From: Paludibacteraceae bacterium
Lineage (GTDB): Bacteria > Bacteroidota > Bacteroidia > Bacteroidales > Paludibacteraceae
Direction: 5' to 3'
Assembly: GCA_017443145.1 (NCBI GenBank)
Contig: JAFSPA010000001.1
Location: 1-64,000, forward strand
DNA: 64,000 bases
The notes beneath the pieces are model-generated. The model did no database searches, was not told the DNA's origin, and saw nothing but the letters and a program-made list of their open reading frames with translations. Position numbers and translations under genes: made by a program. Positions 13,446 to 58,134 of the stretch are shown piece after piece (position 1 is the first letter of the stretch; every line of letters starts with the position of its first letter).

Positions 13446-14489
13446 TTACTCTTTGTTCTTGAGTTGTTTCTCTATGTCGGACACGCGATGCATCAGGTCA
13501 GGCAGCTGCTTGAAGCCTGCAGTACACTTGCGCCATGCGAGTGCATCAAATGCGGGTGCTCCTTGGTAGAAGCCCGGTTTCTTAGGATTCGAGTGCACAC
13601 CAGCTTTCGCGCCAAAGACGCAGTGGTCTGCAATCTCTATATGTCCGTTCACACCTACTTGACCTGCGAAAATACAGTGGTCGCCAATGGTTGTGGAACC
13701 GGCAATACCTACCTGCGCGCAAAGGAAGCAACTCTCGCCCACAATGACATTATGTGCCACTTGTACGAGGTTATCTATCTTCGCGTTCTTCTTAACGATG
13801 GTCGAACCCATCATTGCACGATCCACAGTGGTGTTAGCGCCTATCTCTACATCATCTTCGATAACCACATTACCAATCTGCGGCAGTTTCTGGTTGACAC
13901 CGTTGGCATCGGGTTCAAAACCGAAGCCGTCACCACCGATAACCACACCTGCATGAAGGATGCAATCCTTACCTATCTCGCAGTTATAGTACACTTTAAC
14001 TCCTGCATAAAGGATGGTGTTGTCGCCAATCTTGACATTATCGCCGATATAGCAGTTCGGGTAGATTTGCACACCCTTACCGAGTTGCACGTTCTTGCCT
14101 ATATACGCGAAAGCGCCTATATACGCATCCTCGGGCACTTGCACACCTTCGGTGATGAAAGACGGCTGTTCGATACCTTGTTTGGCAGGATTGAGCGCCT
14201 TGGCTACGAGTTGTAGTAATTGCCCCATAGCGGCACGTGCATTTTCGACCATAATGATGGTGCAGCGTCCCGTTAGCGTCTCGTTAGCGTCTCGTAAGCC
14301 GCTCGATAAAAGTACTACCGAAGCGTTGGTCGTTTCCAATTGCGGAAGATACTTCTCTTCGCATAAGAAAGAGAGCTGTCCTTCGTGAGCGGACTCAAGC
14401 GGTCCTACGTCCGAAACCTTGCGGTCGGGATCGCCAATAACTTTGCCGCCGAGAAGCGAAGCGATTTGTTGTGCACTAAATTCTATCAT
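13446..14489 (-). CDS. lpxD: UDP-3-O-acylglucosamine N-acyltransferase
   Basis: Third enzyme of lipid A synthesis, adding the amide-linked hydroxyacyl chain. 347 residues: an N-terminal uridine-binding domain (about 1-100), a long hexapeptide-repeat beta-helix (about 100-310) with the catalytic histidine in LVQVAHNVIVG, and a C-terminal helix. Begins inside the end of the HD-domain gene (4-base overlap) and ends one base before lpxC, so lpxD, lpxC and lpxA are co-transcribed in pathway-clustered order. Confidence 0.96.
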   Translation of the reverse strand: MIEFSAQQIASLLGGKVIGDPDRKVSDVGPLESAHEGQLSFLCEEKYLPQLETTNASVVLLSSGLRDANETLTGRCTIIMVENARAAMGQLLQLVAKALNPAKQGIEQPSFITEGVQVPEDAYIGAFAYIGKNVQLGKGVQIYPNCYIGDNVKIGDNTILYAGVKVYYNCEIGKDCILHAGVVIGGDGFGFEPDANGVNQKLPQIGNVVIEDDVEIGANTTVDRAMMGSTIVKKNAKIDNLVQVAHNVIVGESCFLCAQVGIAGSTTIGDHCIFAGQVGVNGHIEIADHCVFGAKAGVHSNPKKPGFYQGAPAFDALAWRKCTAGFKQLPDLMHRVSDIEKQLKNKE

Positions 14490-31749: not shown

Positions 31750-33870
31750 TTACTCTACACGTATTCCAGTAGCGTTGTACGTTTTGCCGTCACGGATAAT
31801 AAGTAGTTGTCCGTTTTTGAGCAGTTTGGTAGCACTCTGTTTGTCGGTTTGTACGTTATCGATGGCTTGTTTTTTCTCGGTGTAGAAGCGTAAGACTTCG
31901 GACCAATCGCTGTATTCTTCGCCTTGTTTAGCGCGGACTTGCACTTCGTAGTAAACGTTTTTCTTCAGGCCGGTAATGGTGCGGCTCTTGGTAGCGATGT
32001 TCTCTATTACGGTCCACTCTTGTTCAGGATTATCCTCCATGCGGTAGCGCAGTTCGTACTTATCCCCTCGACCTTTCCATACGATGACAGCACCTGTGTT
32101 GCTCACGGTTGAGGTAGCTAAGTCTTTGGCGTACGGATGATAAACAGGGGTGTTGGTGAAGTGTGCATTGACGAGCCATGCCGTATAGGTGAAATCAGGA
32201 GCTATATCTTTTAGATCCATCCAACTGATATCACTACCTCCTGCCATACCCAACCAACGCGCATTGGACGCGTTCACGTCAGACATATAGGATACGGGGA
32301 AAGTCTTGCCGTAATCTTCTCCCGTGTTGCGGAAGAATACCCACAAGTTCTTGCTTTTTTCGTATTCAACGGGATCAATCAGTTCAAACTCACATACGTT
32401 ATTAGCTGTTTGTGGAACAACTGTTTGCGACCACGCTTTTGTGGCATTATTAGGAGTGTTTCCGCCTTTCATAATAACGATTTCGCACTCGCTATTATCC
32501 ATTGCGTAGACAGAGACTTTATCCAGATATTTATCTACAGCCGTATTCGTTGGAATCTTTATTCCCCAGTAACTTCCTTCCGACAGCTCTCCTGAGCCGG
32601 CGAACGTGTTGGTACCGTAGTAAACCCAGCCGTTCTCTACCGTAGGCATTGTTTGTTCAGCAGGAACATCGGCTGTTGTGAACGTGAAGACAGCTGAGTT
32701 GGCACTCAACGTATCGCTATCGATTGTTGTTCCGCAAATGCCATATACGATTACGTCATACGAGGTTTTGGGTTCAAGCGGAGAAAGAATAACGGCACTT
32801 TCGGCTTTCGGGATACGATTAGGATATTCGATGTACTTCGAATCAGACGATTTCTTATAACGAACGCCGAAATAGTTCTGATTGCCTGCTGTCCACGCCA
32901 CCTTGGTTTGTGAATAACCTGCCTCACCATCTACATGGATATTCGTCGGTACATCGCAATCGGGGTCTATATAATCCGGGAAGTCTTTCTCTACGTAATT
33001 GGTAAACTTACTCCATCCGGGCGCTGCTTTGTACGCCGCTGTCTTGCCGGTAGGAACAGTAATCGTGGCAGAAGATTTCATTTCATAGAAAGATGATTCT
33101 GTAGCCACTGGAGGCACTTTTGCTGCGCAAGTAATAGATGTTATTTCATAACAAGACAAACCGTTGCCCTCAATTTCCTTAAGTGTTCTCGGCAACTCAA
33201 TCGAAGTCAATTGACAAACATAATAAGTACCCGGCTTAAAAGCATAATGGCCAATCTTGGTCACACCATCCGGTACCACATAGGAGGTGCGCCCTTTAGC
33301 ATCTCCCATAGGGAAGGCTATCACTTCAGTCATGCTTTTATTATATAGCACGCCATCTACCGATGTAAAATATGGGTTGGAAGAGGAAACCGTGAAGTTG
33401 GCTAGTTTCCTGCAGCCATAAAAAGCCTCACGTCCTAATGATTTAACTTTCGATCCAAGATACACGCTGGTAATGTTCGTTGATGCAAAAGCTAAATCAC
33501 CTATTGTTTGTAGATTATCCGGCAAAGTAATATTCTTTGACTCAAAACTACAGCTTATAAAAGCATATTCTCCAATGGAAGTAAGAGATGTTGGGAAGTT
33601 GAACGATTTAAGCCAAGATCCATAAAAGGCATTATTTCCAATTGTTGTTATGCCATCAGCCAGTTCGTAGTAATAGGGATTAACAAACCACCATGGCGGC
33701 TGATTGGTGGACAGCTCGTAATCGTACATCGGACCGTAGCCGGTAAAACGTACCAACTGTTTGGTGTCGGTATACCACCATTGGATATTAGGACCAACAT
33801 TGTCCCCATCCGCAATGACATAACTCGTCGCGCAAATAATTGCAACTAAAGATAGAAGAACTTTTTTCAT
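31750..33870 (-). CDS. BspA-type leucine-rich repeat and fibronectin III surface protein
   Basis: 706 residues from MKKVLLSLV; an ATG two codons earlier is also possible. Signal peptide, then BspA-like leucine-rich repeats (about 60-290: NAFYGSWLKSFNFPTSLTSI and similar, with I-x-x-x-A/F spacing), a fibronectin III domain (about 310-405), a middle domain of unknown type (about 415-600) and a second fibronectin III domain (about 605-670). The last 37 residues resemble the tail of the 1964-residue protein at 590 and may be a type IX-like sorting tail. Probably a surface adhesin. Divergent from porX. Confidence 0.87.
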   Translation of the reverse strand: MKKVLLSLVAIICATSYVIADGDNVGPNIQWWYTDTKQLVRFTGYGPMYDYELSTNQPPWWFVNPYYYELADGITTIGNNAFYGSWLKSFNFPTSLTSIGEYAFISCSFESKNITLPDNLQTIGDLAFASTNITSVYLGSKVKSLGREAFYGCRKLANFTVSSSNPYFTSVDGVLYNKSMTEVIAFPMGDAKGRTSYVVPDGVTKIGHYAFKPGTYYVCQLTSIELPRTLKEIEGNGLSCYEITSITCAAKVPPVATESSFYEMKSSATITVPTGKTAAYKAAPGWSKFTNYVEKDFPDYIDPDCDVPTNIHVDGEAGYSQTKVAWTAGNQNYFGVRYKKSSDSKYIEYPNRIPKAESAVILSPLEPKTSYDVIVYGICGTTIDSDTLSANSAVFTFTTADVPAEQTMPTVENGWVYYGTNTFAGSGELSEGSYWGIKIPTNTAVDKYLDKVSVYAMDNSECEIVIMKGGNTPNNATKAWSQTVVPQTANNVCEFELIDPVEYEKSKNLWVFFRNTGEDYGKTFPVSYMSDVNASNARWLGMAGGSDISWMDLKDIAPDFTYTAWLVNAHFTNTPVYHPYAKDLATSTVSNTGAVIVWKGRGDKYELRYRMEDNPEQEWTVIENIATKSRTITGLKKNVYYEVQVRAKQGEEYSDWSEVLRFYTEKKQAIDNVQTDKQSATKLLKNGQLLIIRDGKTYNATGIRVE

Positions 33871-33937
33871 ATACATATTGTTTTAATGGTTATAGCTTTT
33901 TTCCGTCTGTGGAGACCGCTCCACTCAATTAGGGCTG

Positions 33938-33985: not shown

Positions 33986-34017
33986 CTTGCATAATTGACA
34001 AAAAAGCAGTATCTTTG
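33986..34017 (+). promoter_or_regulatory. porX promoter
   Basis: CTTG (33986-33989), 20 bases, TATCTTTG (34010-34017). Only 16 bases separate its -33 from that of the divergent surface-protein promoter. The leader to porX is about 200 bases and almost entirely repetitive. Confidence 0.7.
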
Positions 34018-34032
34018 CAGCCGGAAAATAGG

Positions 34033-34087
34033 ATTGAGTAGGTTTTGAATTGGCTTTGAATTGGTTTTGAATTGGCTTTGAGTTATA
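34033..34087. repeat. 11-bp tandem repeat in the porX leader (TTTGAATTGGY)
   Basis: Three clear units of 11 bp (34044-34054, 34055-34065, 34066-34076) flanked by one diverged unit on each side in the same register. Confidence 0.85.
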
Positions 34088-34099
34088 CTATGATCCCGT

Positions 34100-34154
34100 T
34101 GAGCATACATTGAGCATACATTGAGCATATATTGAGCATATATTGAGCATATAT
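34100..34154. repeat. 11-bp tandem repeat x5 in the porX leader (TGAGCATAYAT)
   Basis: Five head-to-tail units with only C/T variation at one position: two with C, then three with T. Too short and without spacers to be a CRISPR. Confidence 0.95.
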
Positions 34155-34158
34155 TGCG

Positions 34159-34211
34159 AACGGGAGGCAAACGGGAGGCTAAAGGTTATAGGTTAGAGGT
34201 TAAAGGTTATA
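34159..34211. repeat. 11-bp x2 and 7-bp x4 tandem repeats before porX start
   Basis: AACGGGAGGCA/T twice (34159-34180), then GGTTATA, GGTTAGA, GGTTAAA, GGTTATA (34184-34211). The porX ATG follows 14 bases later. Any ribosome entry site for porX must lie in or next to this array. Confidence 0.9.
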
Positions 34212-34225
34212 GTTAATAAAGGATT

Positions 34226-35764
34226 ATGAATACAATATTGTGGGCAGATGACGAGATGGAGTTGTTGAAGCCTTATGTCATCTACTTGAAAGAGAAAGGC
34301 TATGAGGTTTTGTCTGCGACAAACGGTCAAGACGCGATAGATTTGTTCCGTAAAGAGGCGGTGGATATTGTGTTTCTGGATGAGAACATGCCGGGATTGA
34401 GCGGTTTGGAGACACTGGAAACGATGAAGTCTCTTCGGGCAGATGTTCCGGTAGTGATGATAACGAAGAGCGAAGAGGAACGGATCATGGAGCAAGCTAT
34501 TGGTGCAAAGATAGCGGATTATCTGATTAAGCCGGTTAATCCGAGTCAGATATTGCTGTGTTTGAAGAAGCATGTTCATCAGCGAGAGATCGTGGAGAAA
34601 CATACGAATAAGGGCTATCAAGAGGAGTTTGGAGATATTGGGTTCATGATTGATACGGCAAAGACGCTGGACGAGTGGATAGCGGTTTACAAGACTTTGT
34701 CGCGTTGGGATATTGAATTGCAGGATGTGGATTCGGCGATGCGTGAGATGCTGCATATGCAGAGTCAACAAGCGAATGCGGCTTTTGCGAAGTTTGTGAG
34801 CCGGAATTACGAGGAATGGTTTGCAGATGGTGCGCAACGGCCGTTGATGTCGCCGGATATTTTTAAGAATGTGCTGTTTCCGATGCTGGACAAAGGCGAG
34901 AAGCTGTTCTTTTTGGTGATAGATAATTTCCGCTACGACCAGTGGAAGACGATACAGCCGCTGTTGAGCGAGTTCTTTACGACGACGGAAGAAAGCTGCT
35001 ATTCGTCTATTTTGCCTACGGCAACACAGTATGCTCGGAATGCTATTTTCTCGGGATTGATGCCGTTGCAGATACAGGAGATGTTCCCCGATTTGTGGGT
35101 TGAGGAAGATGAGGAAGAAGGCAAGAACTTGAACGAGAAAGAGCTGATACAGACGCAGTTAGAGCGTTTCCGCAAGCATTACGGGTTTAGTTATTTCAAG
35201 ATTAACGAGAGCGATTTCTGCGAGAAAGTGATTCGACAGTTGAAGGGATTGCAGACTCCGTTGAATGTGATTGTGCTGAATTTTATTGATATGCTTTCTC
35301 ACTCGCGGACGGACAGTAAGATGATGCGGGAGTTGTGTAATGACGAGGCGGCATATCGTAGTCTGACACTCAGTTGGTTCAAGCATTCTCCGACGTATGA
35401 GTTGTTTAGACGTATTGCTTCGCTCGGGTATAAGGTGATATTGACGACGGATCACGGAACTATTCGCGTGCAGAATCCGGTGCAGATAATTGGCGATAAG
35501 AACACAAACACGAACTTACGGTACAAGGTGGGAAAGTCGCTTAACTGCCAGAGTAAGAACGTGTTAGAGGTGACACATCCGAAGCAGATTGGTTTGCCGT
35601 GTCCGAATATCAGCAGCAGTTATGTGTTCTGCAGCGGCGAGGATTTCTTTGCGTATCCGAATAACTTCAATTACTATGCGCAGTACTACCGGAATACGTT
35701 CCAACATGGCGGAATTTCGATGGAGGAAATGCTGATACCGCTTGTGACATTGGATCCGAAATGA
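34226..35764 (+). CDS. porX: PorX response regulator with PglZ domain
   Basis: 512 residues. Receiver domain (about 1-120) with the acidic pocket Asp8-Asp9, phospho-acceptor Asp52 (VFLDENMPG) and Lys near 103 (YLIKP), a short helical linker, and a PglZ/alkaline-phosphatase-fold domain (about 200-510) with IDNFRYDQW and TTDHGTIRV metal-site motifs. This architecture is that of PorX, which with the kinase PorY and sigma factor SigP controls type IX secretion genes in Porphyromonas. No porY or secretion structural genes are in the window. Long repetitive leader. Its stop overlaps the next start (ATGA). Confidence 0.92.
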   Translation: MNTILWADDEMELLKPYVIYLKEKGYEVLSATNGQDAIDLFRKEAVDIVFLDENMPGLSGLETLETMKSLRADVPVVMITKSEEERIMEQAIGAKIADYLIKPVNPSQILLCLKKHVHQREIVEKHTNKGYQEEFGDIGFMIDTAKTLDEWIAVYKTLSRWDIELQDVDSAMREMLHMQSQQANAAFAKFVSRNYEEWFADGAQRPLMSPDIFKNVLFPMLDKGEKLFFLVIDNFRYDQWKTIQPLLSEFFTTTEESCYSSILPTATQYARNAIFSGLMPLQIQEMFPDLWVEEDEEEGKNLNEKELIQTQLERFRKHYGFSYFKINESDFCEKVIRQLKGLQTPLNVIVLNFIDMLSHSRTDSKMMRELCNDEAAYRSLTLSWFKHSPTYELFRRIASLGYKVILTTDHGTIRVQNPVQIIGDKNTNTNLRYKVGKSLNCQSKNVLEVTHPKQIGLPCPNISSSYVFCSGEDFFAYPNNFNYYAQYYRNTFQHGGISMEEMLIPLVTLDPK

Positions 35765-55579: not shown

Positions 55580-56081
55580 CAAATAGCGTATCTAATATAC
55601 TTATCTCCGTTTGCCACGGATGTTTATCTGTCCAAGTCAATCCGCTCCACTCGTTTGTAGCGTATCTTAAGCGTATCTTAAGCGTATCCGGTCGTTCTTT
55701 TTTCAGCAGCGAAACAATCGTTTCTGTCAGTTCTGCGTTTAGGTCCACAAGCCACTTATATTGCTTCTCATAGAACGGCCGCAGGTAGTCTGCGAAATAG
55801 ATAAAATACGGCTTGTGTCTATACGCACTCTCTATCGCAATCCAGTGCTGGTGTTGCCACTTACTCTGATAACTAATCGCTATATCGCGTGTCAACTGTT
55901 TATGTTCCACCTTTCCCACCGGCACGGTCAGTCGGATTATCTCGCCCTTCGGGTCACGAATCAGACACCGGTTCCGAAACGTCTGTTTCTCAAAACTCTC
56001 CATCACCTCAATCGTCGCAGCCTCACTCATCAAGGCATCAAAATACGATTTCGGTGGGCAATATGCCGTTGGCAAAATCAT
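55569..56081 (-). CDS. WbqC-like family protein
   Basis: 170 residues. Begins LPTAYCPPKSYF and contains FRNRCLIRDPKGEIIRLTVPVG and KWQHQHWIAIESAYRHKPYF, the hallmark of the WbqC family. Family members occur in O-antigen loci but biochemical function is unproven. A 12-base word is repeated within the gene (55664-55687, CGTATCTTAAG), in frame. Overlaps ilvE by 11 bases; its start codon lies in a heptamer array. Confidence 0.88.
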   Translation of the reverse strand: MILPTAYCPPKSYFDALMSEAATIEVMESFEKQTFRNRCLIRDPKGEIIRLTVPVGKVEHKQLTRDIAISYQSKWQHQHWIAIESAYRHKPYFIYFADYLRPFYEKQYKWLVDLNAELTETIVSLLKKERPDTLKIRLRYATNEWSGLTWTDKHPWQTEISILDTLFDEC

Positions 56082-56104
56082 AAATCATCAATCATAAATC
56101 ATCA
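56077..56104. repeat. heptamer array at the wbqC-lepB junction
   Basis: Four perfect alternating units: ATCATAA, ATCATCA, ATCATAA, ATCATCA. The wbqC-like start codon (CAT, 56079-56081) is in the first unit and the lepB stop (TCA, 56102-56104) is in the last, so the 20-base spacer is exactly the array. Confidence 0.95.
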
Positions 56105-57481
56105 ATCGCTGGCTCGCTTGCCCAAGCGAGTCCAACGTATATGTCCTTTAAACCACGGTTTATCTTTCTCCACACTCAACCAAATAAAGACAGGTCGTCC
56201 TACAACATGATCTTCAGGCACAAAGCCCCAGTACCTACTATCCGCACTGTTGTGACGGTTATCGCCTTGCATCCAGTAGTAATCCATCGCGAACTCGTAC
56301 TCTTCGCCTATAGCCATTGGCTTATGCTCATACGCTTGCGCAATGCGGCGATATATCGGATAGTTCTCCTCCGTAATCATCAGCTTATCCCCCTTGCGCG
56401 GAATATAAATCGGTCCGTAGTTATCACGTGTCCAACTCGTCGCACCCAGCGGATACACATCGCCACCGGCTGCTTCCGGCTCCACATCTATCGATACCAC
56501 ATGCGGATTCTTAGCCAGGTTCTCATGCATCGCTTCCGTCATGGGGAAATGATATACTCCCGGCTCTATCACATGCTGATCGTCATGACTCACGCCCAGT
56601 TTATCCAAATACGTCCGCGTCAGCAAATGTCCATCCGTCCGTACGATATAATTCAACTGCACACCTTTTCGTGTCGGTTCTTCTTTCCAATCTTCGTTCG
56701 TCTTCGTATAAACGACATTGTTGATTACCCGCAAACTGTCACCCGGCTCACCCACGCAACGTTTCACATAATTCTCGCGTCTATCCACAGGCCGCACAAC
56801 AATATCGCCGAACACATCTTTTCGCGCCTCAACGACCTGCTTACCGTAGTAGTGGCACAGCGTATAGTAATCGGGATTCTGCATTTTCAGGCACACCGTA
56901 TCACCTGCCGGAAAATTAAACACCACAATATCGCCCTTCTTCGGCGTATCCCAACCGCGCAGACGTTTGTACGGCCACTGTGGTTTGTCCCAATAACTCT
57001 TTCCTCCACCGAACGCGGCAGGCCAACTGTGTTGCATCAGCGGCATCGACAACGGCGTGTTCGGTACGCGAGCACCGTAACTCATCTTGCTCACGAACAA
57101 GAAATCCCCCACGCGCAGACTCTTCTCCAGACTCGAACTCGGAATCTGGTAGTTCTGGAACATATAGAGGTTAATGAAATACACCGCCACGAGTGCAAAC
57201 GCTATCGCATCTATCCACGAGCACAAGGTGTAGAGTCCTGGCTTGGCTTGCGGATTAGCAGGTTCATCCTTACCGGCAGGCTTATACTTTTTCCACCAGC
57301 TCCAGTTGATAAACTTCGTCGTAAACGCATCCACAATCACCGGCAGCAGTAACAGCCACCACAGCGACTTTGGGTCATCCCAGGCCAGCCAGATAATGAA
57401 TGCGATATAGAGTGCACTCCAGCACCCTGCTGCTATCCACCCTTTGGTGGTTACTTTCTGTAATCGTTCTCTAATAGTCAT
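56102..57481 (-). CDS. lepB: signal peptidase I
   Basis: Cleaves signal peptides from secreted proteins. 459 residues, long as usual in Bacteroidota. N-terminal membrane segments (about 15-60 and 88-108), then the S26 domain with the catalytic serine Ser117 in IPSSSLEKSLRVGDFLFV and the general-base lysine in NYVKRCVGEPGD (about 218). A further conserved box is GDNRHNSADSRYWGFVPEDHVVG. Large insertions between boxes give the extra length. Bounded on both sides by heptamer arrays. Confidence 0.95.
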   Translation of the reverse strand: MTIRERLQKVTTKGWIAAGCWSALYIAFIIWLAWDDPKSLWWLLLLPVIVDAFTTKFINWSWWKKYKPAGKDEPANPQAKPGLYTLCSWIDAIAFALVAVYFINLYMFQNYQIPSSSLEKSLRVGDFLFVSKMSYGARVPNTPLSMPLMQHSWPAAFGGGKSYWDKPQWPYKRLRGWDTPKKGDIVVFNFPAGDTVCLKMQNPDYYTLCHYYGKQVVEARKDVFGDIVVRPVDRRENYVKRCVGEPGDSLRVINNVVYTKTNEDWKEEPTRKGVQLNYIVRTDGHLLTRTYLDKLGVSHDDQHVIEPGVYHFPMTEAMHENLAKNPHVVSIDVEPEAAGGDVYPLGATSWTRDNYGPIYIPRKGDKLMITEENYPIYRRIAQAYEHKPMAIGEEYEFAMDYYWMQGDNRHNSADSRYWGFVPEDHVVGRPVFIWLSVEKDKPWFKGHIRWTRLGKRASD

Positions 57482-57486
57482 TTTTC

Positions 57487-57514
57487 GTTTAGCGTTTAGG
57501 GTTTAGCGTTTAGG
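57487..57514. repeat. heptamer array at the lepB-dapB junction
   Basis: GTTTAGC, GTTTAGG, GTTTAGC, GTTTAGG in tandem, followed by a partial unit. The dapB stop codon (57496-57498) and its last six codons lie inside the array. Confidence 0.95.
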
Positions 57515-58134
57515 GATTCGGCGGCAAGGACAGCACCTAAGGCAAAGCCCTCGCGTCCTTTCGCCATATGGGAAATAACAATGGTATCTTCGGGGCTATC
57601 CCAAATGACGGAGTGGTTACCCGGTATCTCTCCCTCGCGCACCGACTCAATCTCAGAATCCTTTAGCCCATAACCTTTAGCCCTTAGCCCATCCGCCAGA
57701 GTCCTGGCGGTTCCGGAAGGTTTATCGAGTTTGTGGATATGGTGTTCCTCGTAGATATGCGGACTATATTGCGGATAATCGCGCAACTTCTCTGCCAGCC
57801 ACTTGTTCAGGTCGAAGAAAATATTCACCCCGACTGAAAAATTACTTTTCCAAACCAAGCCGGGTGTATTGGGTTCGTCCATCAACGCTTCGGCTTTCCA
57901 ACCTGTTGTACCGCAGACCACAGGCACACCTTGCGCCCAGGCTTTCCTTACATTCGCTTCAGCTGTCTGAGGCGTCGTGAACTCAATCGCCACGTCCGCA
58001 CTGCGAAAAGCTTCACTCTCGAACTTTGCTTCGTCACCCACATCAATAGTGCACACGATCTCATGCCCACGCAACAGCGCTATCTGCTCAATCATATGCC
58101 CCATCTTGCCATATCCAATTAATGCAATCTTCAT
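57496..58134 (-). CDS. dapB: 4-hydroxy-tetrahydrodipicolinate reductase, shortened
   Basis: Lysine and diaminopimelate pathway. 212 residues from the ATG at 58134, against about 240-270 in most bacteria. The NAD(P)H-binding start MKIALIGYGKMG, CGTTGW, and the catalytic HHIHKLDKPSGTA (about 131-143) are intact. Two regions are reduced: the variable loop after the catalytic motif (about 147-158), which here is encoded by five tandem heptamers, and the C-terminal tail, which ends SLNAKP encoded by another heptamer array. Probably still active since all catalytic residues remain, but the tetramer contacts may be altered. Confidence 0.92.
   Translation of the reverse strand: MKIALIGYGKMGHMIEQIALLRGHEIVCTIDVGDEAKFESEAFRSADVAIEFTTPQTAEANVRKAWAQGVPVVCGTTGWKAEALMDEPNTPGLVWKSNFSVGVNIFFDLNKWLAEKLRDYPQYSPHIYEEHHIHKLDKPSGTARTLADGLRAKGYGLKDSEIESVREGEIPGNHSVIWDSPEDTIVISHMAKGREGFALGAVLAAESLNAKP
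57660..57694. repeat. heptamer array inside dapB
   Basis: CCTTTAG, CCCATAA, CCTTTAG, CCCTTAG, CCCATCC in tandem on the plus strand, within the coding region and reading through without a stop in the dapB frame. Confidence 0.9.

Follow-up and report, generated by a model that had tools for sequence, protein, structure and literature searches.

Tandem 11-bp repeats in a Paludibacteraceae porX leader as a candidate solo copy of a dispersed, gene-linked module

Layout of the porX leader and its length in sister species

The window (the whole stretch of 64,000 nucleotides that was analyzed) comes from a Paludibacteraceae bacterium and contains a gene for a response regulator with a PglZ domain, a porX-type protein, as the original prediction had held. 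Between this gene and an rluD-type gene, a gene for a BspA-type leucine-rich repeat protein is located on the minus strand (31750-33876). The same placement was seen in two sister species; in relatives, porX often directly follows the synthase gene. The porX region comprises the following features.

33987..34017, plus strand: probable porX promoter, with TTG at 33987 and TATCTTTG at 34010-34017
34034..34081, plus strand: left 11-bp array of the GGYTTTGAATT type, from repeat finding and sister comparison
34080..34098, plus strand: left shoulder of the dispersed module, GAGTTATACTATGATCCCG; similar shoulders are found at C13:86232 of the same genome and at sister loci
34099..34153, plus strand: core array of five TTGAGCATAYA units, from repeat finding, genome copies and sister comparison
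34154..34179, plus strand: right module shoulder, two G-rich 11-mers of the AACGGGAGGCA type, from repeat finding and other copies
34183..34212, plus strand: 7-bp array, AGGTTAT, from repeat finding and sister comparison
34226..35764, plus strand: porX, response regulator and PglZ, from domain content

Bacteroidetes promoters follow the consensus TTG / TAnnTTTG. Judged by this consensus, 33987..34017 is probably a Bacteroidetes-type promoter of porX, and TACTTTTG is kept at its position in both sister species. The arrays lie between this promoter and the porX start codon at 34226, as had been claimed. Since the promoter is upstream of them, they are probably transcribed.

Tandem Repeats Finder reported four arrays in the leader: 34034-34081 (period 11, with 22 also reported; 3.5 copies of the 11-mer), 34099-34156 (period 11, 5.3 copies, score 102), 34159-34179 (period 11, 1.9 copies) and 34183-34212 (period 7, 4.3 copies). 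Of the 193 bases between 34033 and the first base of porX, 157 lie within tandem repeats. The arrays are thus real, and the earlier figure of 180 of roughly 200 leader bases was slightly high. In 300 dinucleotide shuffles of the leader, the mean cover was 1.6 bases and the maximum 41, and the top repeat score was 52, compared with 157 bases and a score of 102 in the real leader. The core array is bracketed by CCCGTT (34095-34100) and AACGGG (34159-34164), and a copy in C20 of the same genome by CCCGCTG and CAGCGGG. Folding of the bracketing sequences at the core array was no better than that of shuffles.

The module is also present at the porX position in two related species, RUG437 and SRR873603 bin.104. 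In comparison to both, the left array of the genome under study is longer by 33 bp (3 units). The core array has five units here and in RUG437, and six in bin.104 (+11 bp). The 7-bp AGGTTAT array has no counterpart at porX in either sister. Orthologous arrays elsewhere comprise 9, 5 and 6 units at the C20 locus, 7 and 5 at the C4 locus, and 6 and 4 at L149/L142; two further orthologous pairs have equal numbers, 5 and 5. Change of unit number between species is real. At the remaining porX loci read, the module was not found, and the porX start often coincides with the end of the upstream pseudouridine synthase gene. One genome, G002, has a different 11-bp array approximately 110-160 bases 5' of porX.

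Dispersal of the module and its linkage to a small gene

The leader, used as a query against its own genome, gave further matches. The 22-base repeat pattern occurs at five places in this genome, in C4, C13 (two), C17 and C20, and the middle array at porX (34099-34156) is one of these five copies. The copies have the core and the shoulders in common, not the 11-mer alone: the left shoulder ends with ATGRTCCCG or a similar sequence, and the right shoulder consists of G-rich 11-mers. Within the genus, 101 genomes were sampled, and 25 of them have the module. An order-wide sample gave matches in 3 of 393 genomes, namely the genome under study, one other of the genus, and one outside it, the last being a weak, single hit with one mismatch. 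A scan of named-species genomes yielded 86 stretches, nearly all of them from Paludibacteraceae or Bacteroidales and many from ruminants; L134, L147, L181 and L198 are stretches under other titles. A rumen habitat is inferred for the genome under study. None of the 130 pattern stretches in viral contigs was confirmed, and the phages and plasmids searched gave no match.

The gene context was determined for 89 distinct arrays using a simple ORF caller, with the following result.

Both neighbors on the opposite strand: 20/89
Between convergent genes: 16/89
Between divergent genes: 13/89
Both neighbors on the strand of the array: 13/89
ORF called across the array: 18/89, these ORFs being mostly short and probably spurious
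Contig end: 9/89

The module is found in all gene contexts and is not a leader element.

Reading of the array neighbors revealed a recurrent ORF of approximately 118 codons just 5' of arrays and on the same strand. An 11-bp array (score of at least 24/33 at lag 11) was detected within 260 bp 3' of the stop codon for 54 of the 58 unique gene hits with enough sequence, some of which had been found via the array. The same score was reached by 1.4% of 3000 random windows of the genome under study. The four genes without it are L246, a 42-aa fragment, and L247, L249 and L250, which are partial or weak. Among 30 loci found by protein alone, the sole miss was L228, where the sequence continues for 91 nt past the stop codon. 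In a second protein search, filtered for non-fragments with E <= 1e-9 and at least 150 nt downstream, arrays followed 14 of 15 genes (the exception is L328); three of these 14, L320, L326 and L336, were loci seen before.

Gene and array also go together at the level of genomes. A protein search (E <= 0.001) detected the gene in 32 of 61 genomes of the genus: 13 of the 14 array-bearing genomes versus 19 of the 47 array-free ones (Fisher p 5.7e-4). When all 25 array-bearing genomes were considered, 23 had a gene match, two of them weak. In G062, what look like two gene copies are a single stretch that the assembly contains twice.

The 11-mer differs between lineages, and the 11-bp period is constant. 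Units linked to the gene include TTGAGCATAYA, TTGAGCATCCA, ATGAGCACCCG, ATCAGGTTCCA and AGGTCAGTATC, and the gene at C22:158865 of the genome under study is linked to TTGAGCAGCCA. Paralogues within one genome have different units, for example L182 versus L245 in bin.104. Unit distance was correlated with protein distance (Mantel r 0.59, reached in 0 of 2000 permutations; 53 copies, with a few units, e.g., those of L216, L228 and L238, taken from a neighboring repeat instead of the core). This co-variation is no proof of recognition, because physical linkage alone could yield it. An automatic label of array orientation, which varies with the unit chosen as reference, was left out of the results.

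Relative to the gene, the module of L072, L174 and L200 has the opposite orientation to that of L201, and ATTCTT/AAGAAT is found where the inversion breaks. A function at the RNA level was considered and rejected, since inverted arrays of this kind are present in L072/L174/L200, L227 and L241 and since no significant folding of the modules was found. According to the sequence reading, these inversions argue for a role at the DNA level. In folding analyses, six of seven modules were no better than shuffles, and the sequence of the seventh also takes in a separate hairpin that resembles a terminator. Such a hairpin follows the copy beside trxB (L002:1540-1690; C13 near 86232) within approximately 30 bases on its 3' side, and similar hairpins are found shortly downstream at L138, L161 and L180. 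Some arrays may therefore be transcribed as short RNAs.

Cassette edges and the linked protein

Sharp edges were found in clade B of the gene (L218-L222, L235, L238-L240). At the left edge, mean pairwise identity is 0.96 from the ATG onward versus 0.25-0.37 before it (10-bp bins, 36 pairs). Several pairs align from the ATG to just past the array, and in most pairs the fetched flanks are without homology. It looks like a unit that was placed next to different genes. The remaining clades share a promoter, so not every copy is promoterless. In L220 and L238, the ATG of the cassette overlaps the stop codon of the upstream gene (ATGA), which suggests coupled translation; by eye, the end of this upstream gene resembles that of what is presumably a type IX secreted protein.

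At the pfkB junction, 30 loci were read by eye, one of which (L374) has 53 upstream bases only. Two species (L345 and L346) have a full cassette. Two others (L347 and L349), whose upstream genes differ, have a 5' fragment that begins with the ATG, and L350 has short remnant-like matches. In 11 of the 30 loci the junction is direct and cassette-free. Since the insert exceeds one cassette, this is presence and absence and not precise excision. The loci compared yielded no precise empty site for any solo array, a point against the cassette explanation. Several candidate empty sites were rejected. For the array beside trxB, the trxB flank aligns in G113, G076, G104 and G049 to query positions 689-733 and the array at 795-905 is unaligned in all four, but the second flank is located elsewhere. 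At the gene locus of two sisters, the flanks are rearranged in the genome under study. At L149/L142, this genome is without the array but has 5.9 kb of other DNA there, and at the RUG437 array the left flank differs.

The linked protein is small and basic, with a median pI of 9.8 in 53 copies. Six such proteins, one of them a distant relative, were scanned with Pfam: no family reached the cut-off, and neither a recombinase or transposase signature nor a Y1 (HUH) transposase identity was found, which is another point against a cassette. NCBIfam gave no convincing match, and a sequence search of the PDB gave nothing credible. PHROG 7060 matched one of two proteins (E 8e-4). The predicted structure is middling (pLDDT 71.7, pTM 0.50), and its N-terminal part is poor. 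Foldseek against PDB and BFVD returned nothing at E below 0.3, and the best fold comparison (VIA Z 3.8, 69 residues, rmsd 4.8), made with this model, was with a protein of unknown function.

A wider superfamily of the protein was detected in 12 of 295 genomes of the order. Of the distant relatives read outside the genus, L255, L256 and L257 are followed by an 11-bp array and the others are not, which also counts against the cassette explanation. At C20:1-1978 of the genome under study (L264), three short ORFs in a row all match this superfamily; no array was seen after the first of them, and C20:242 has none. A distant relative at C19:12634-13005 (L095; HMM E 4.3e-7) is preceded on the 5' side by an 11-bp array (ACGAAAACGAG) at C19:12534-12593, and a comparable upstream array accompanies a relative in G113 (L337). 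Further, an 11-bp array (AACCTACGAAT) at C17:194695-194756 (L106:648-709) lies 5' of a 180-aa ORF, which may belong to the superfamily (weak evidence). Its unit AACCTACGAAT recurs at L097:5899-5981.

Interpretation and alternatives

We propose that the core of the porX leader (approximately 34080-34179) is a solo copy of a module that is dispersed and restricted to the genus, in which conserved shoulders flank a series of 11-bp direct repeats. In its gene-linked form, the module would be the 3' part of a cassette, in which an ORF of approximately 118 codons is followed within approximately 200 bp by the array, and both cassettes and solo arrays would spread between intergenic sites. Our best guess for the mechanism is binding of the repeats by the linked protein, with one molecule at each helical turn and all on one face of the DNA. 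The array would then be the cis-acting site of the linked protein, within a unit that spreads or maintains itself. The copy at porX is probably a passenger, now forming part of the 5' untranslated region and perhaps neutral there, that grows and shrinks by whole 11-bp units. As an explanation of the leader core, we somewhat favor this reading, with the array as a solo copy from a cassette of gene and repeats that spreads.

Parallels exist in known systems. An integron gene cassette is a promoterless ORF with a downstream site, moving as a unit, and attC sites fold as hairpins. Clade B may be similar in that an ORF without a conserved promoter is followed by a conserved site and seems to behave as a unit; in contrast to integrons, the modules lack a foldable site of the attC type, as judged by the six of seven that folded no better than shuffles. 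The repeat of R1 parC is 11 bp long. In the parts of the sources consulted, StbA/stbDR and ParR/parC each combine a small DNA-binding protein with adjacent direct repeats of about one helical turn (PMC3098194, PMC4949242). The stbDRs of R388 are sets of five 9-bp repeats with two-base spacing, that is, an 11-bp period (PMC3098194), and a 22-bp fragment of R1 parC holds two iterons, consistent with an 11-bp repeat (PMC4949242). Here, too, direct repeats of about 11 bp accompany the gene of a small basic protein, but these arrays are chromosomal, dispersed and 3' of the gene, and no relation in sequence or fold was found to the systems as described there. REPs, according to the sections seen of PMC3116915, are scattered between genes and linked to a gene family with which co-evolution has been proposed; they are palindromic and form hairpins, and the RAYT gene encodes a Y1-type transposase. 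The present module is likewise dispersed and linked to a gene family. It differs from REPIN/RAYT as presented there in that its repeats are direct, hairpin folding is absent in six of seven modules, and the protein matches no transposase family.

Alternatively, the arrays could be elements of a regulon, bound by a transcription factor (perhaps the linked protein) that regulates porX and other neighbors. Direct repeats at helical pitch would suit cooperative binding, and the arrays located between divergent genes or between two genes on their own strand (13/89 each) are placed accordingly. However, arrays occur in all orientations, 16 of the 89 being between convergent genes, and an unsystematic look at the neighbors revealed no common function. 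We consider a regulon unlikely.

Ordinary minisatellites, with 7- and 11-bp arrays produced by slippage and a merely coincidental association with the small gene, would not explain why shoulders on both sides are common to unrelated sites or why 54 of 58 genes are linked to an array at a background of 1.4%; neither is expected from slippage. The genome under study is nevertheless rich in such arrays, with 38 of the period-11 family and 38 of the period-7 family in 464 kb. The corresponding numbers are 10 and 5 in 200 kb in relatives and 3 and 4 in 200 kb in other families, and the shuffled genome has 3 arrays per set at any period. Period-11 arrays of other sequences are common in this genome, mostly without such a gene nearby, and some may therefore come from slippage alone. 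As the account of the porX module, minisatellites appear quite unlikely. The window itself has further 11-bp arrays inside called coding regions (14264-14305, 55659-55688) and period-7 arrays at 56075-56107 (AAATCAT) and 57486-57515 (CGTTTAG), which are part of the genome-wide 7-bp excess.

The original prediction had proposed a phase-variable leader, in which slippage changes the unit number and thereby tunes porX and, with it, type IX secretion. Part of this idea held up: the repeats are placed between promoter and start, the leaders of the three species are apart by exactly 33 and 11 bp, and orthologous arrays vary elsewhere, as at the locus with 9, 5 and 6 units. No support was found for a device designed around porX or type IX secretion. 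The module is dispersed, with four other sites in the same genome and, across the 89 arrays from all genomes, every gene orientation, and the remaining porX loci read are without it. A tuning device at porX is quite unlikely. In phase-variable genes of Moraxella catarrhalis, a repeat tract between promoter and start codon is described in the excerpted text of PMC4679880. The porX leader repeats share this position, but their unit is a dispersed element, and their variation is known here from comparison between species. The same source, in the part seen, reports intergenic heptamers such as TAACTGA in Beggiatoaceae, Cyanobacteria and some Bacteroidetes, close to start codons on the 5' side (PMC4679880). 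Like these, the AGGTTAT array consists of short tandem repeats near a start codon; it is a different 7-mer, and the 11-bp module is not leader-specific. In the literature library searched, we found nothing on 11-bp tandem repeats in Bacteroidetes, or on tandem repeats together with Paludibacteraceae or porX.

Finally, a ParR/StbA-type system for chromosomal segregation or nucleoid positioning, with the arrays as centromere-like sites, is very improbable: a small basic protein plus direct repeats fits in geometry and the stbDRs of R388 likewise have an 11-bp period (PMC3098194, as excerpted), but no plasmid or phage match was obtained, genomes have several diverged gene copies, and the middling model reached a VIA Z of 3.8 at best.

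Taken beyond porX, the solo-copy explanation would imply a type of mobile cassette in rumen Bacteroidales, in which a small basic protein and the 11-bp array it recognizes spread between genes without a known transposase, arrays turn over at a fixed period, and solo arrays end up in leaders such as that of porX. We put this generalization forward only tentatively. If true, it would account for long repeats in leaders like that of porX, and a leader repeat should then be checked for the status of an interspersed element before it is called a phase switch. It would also add a system of dispersed repeats without palindromes or a known transposase and offer a natural series of protein/repeat pairs for studies of recognition. 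Moreover, an uncharacterized gene family of uncultured rumen Bacteroidales would gain a concrete partner, its own 11-bp array.
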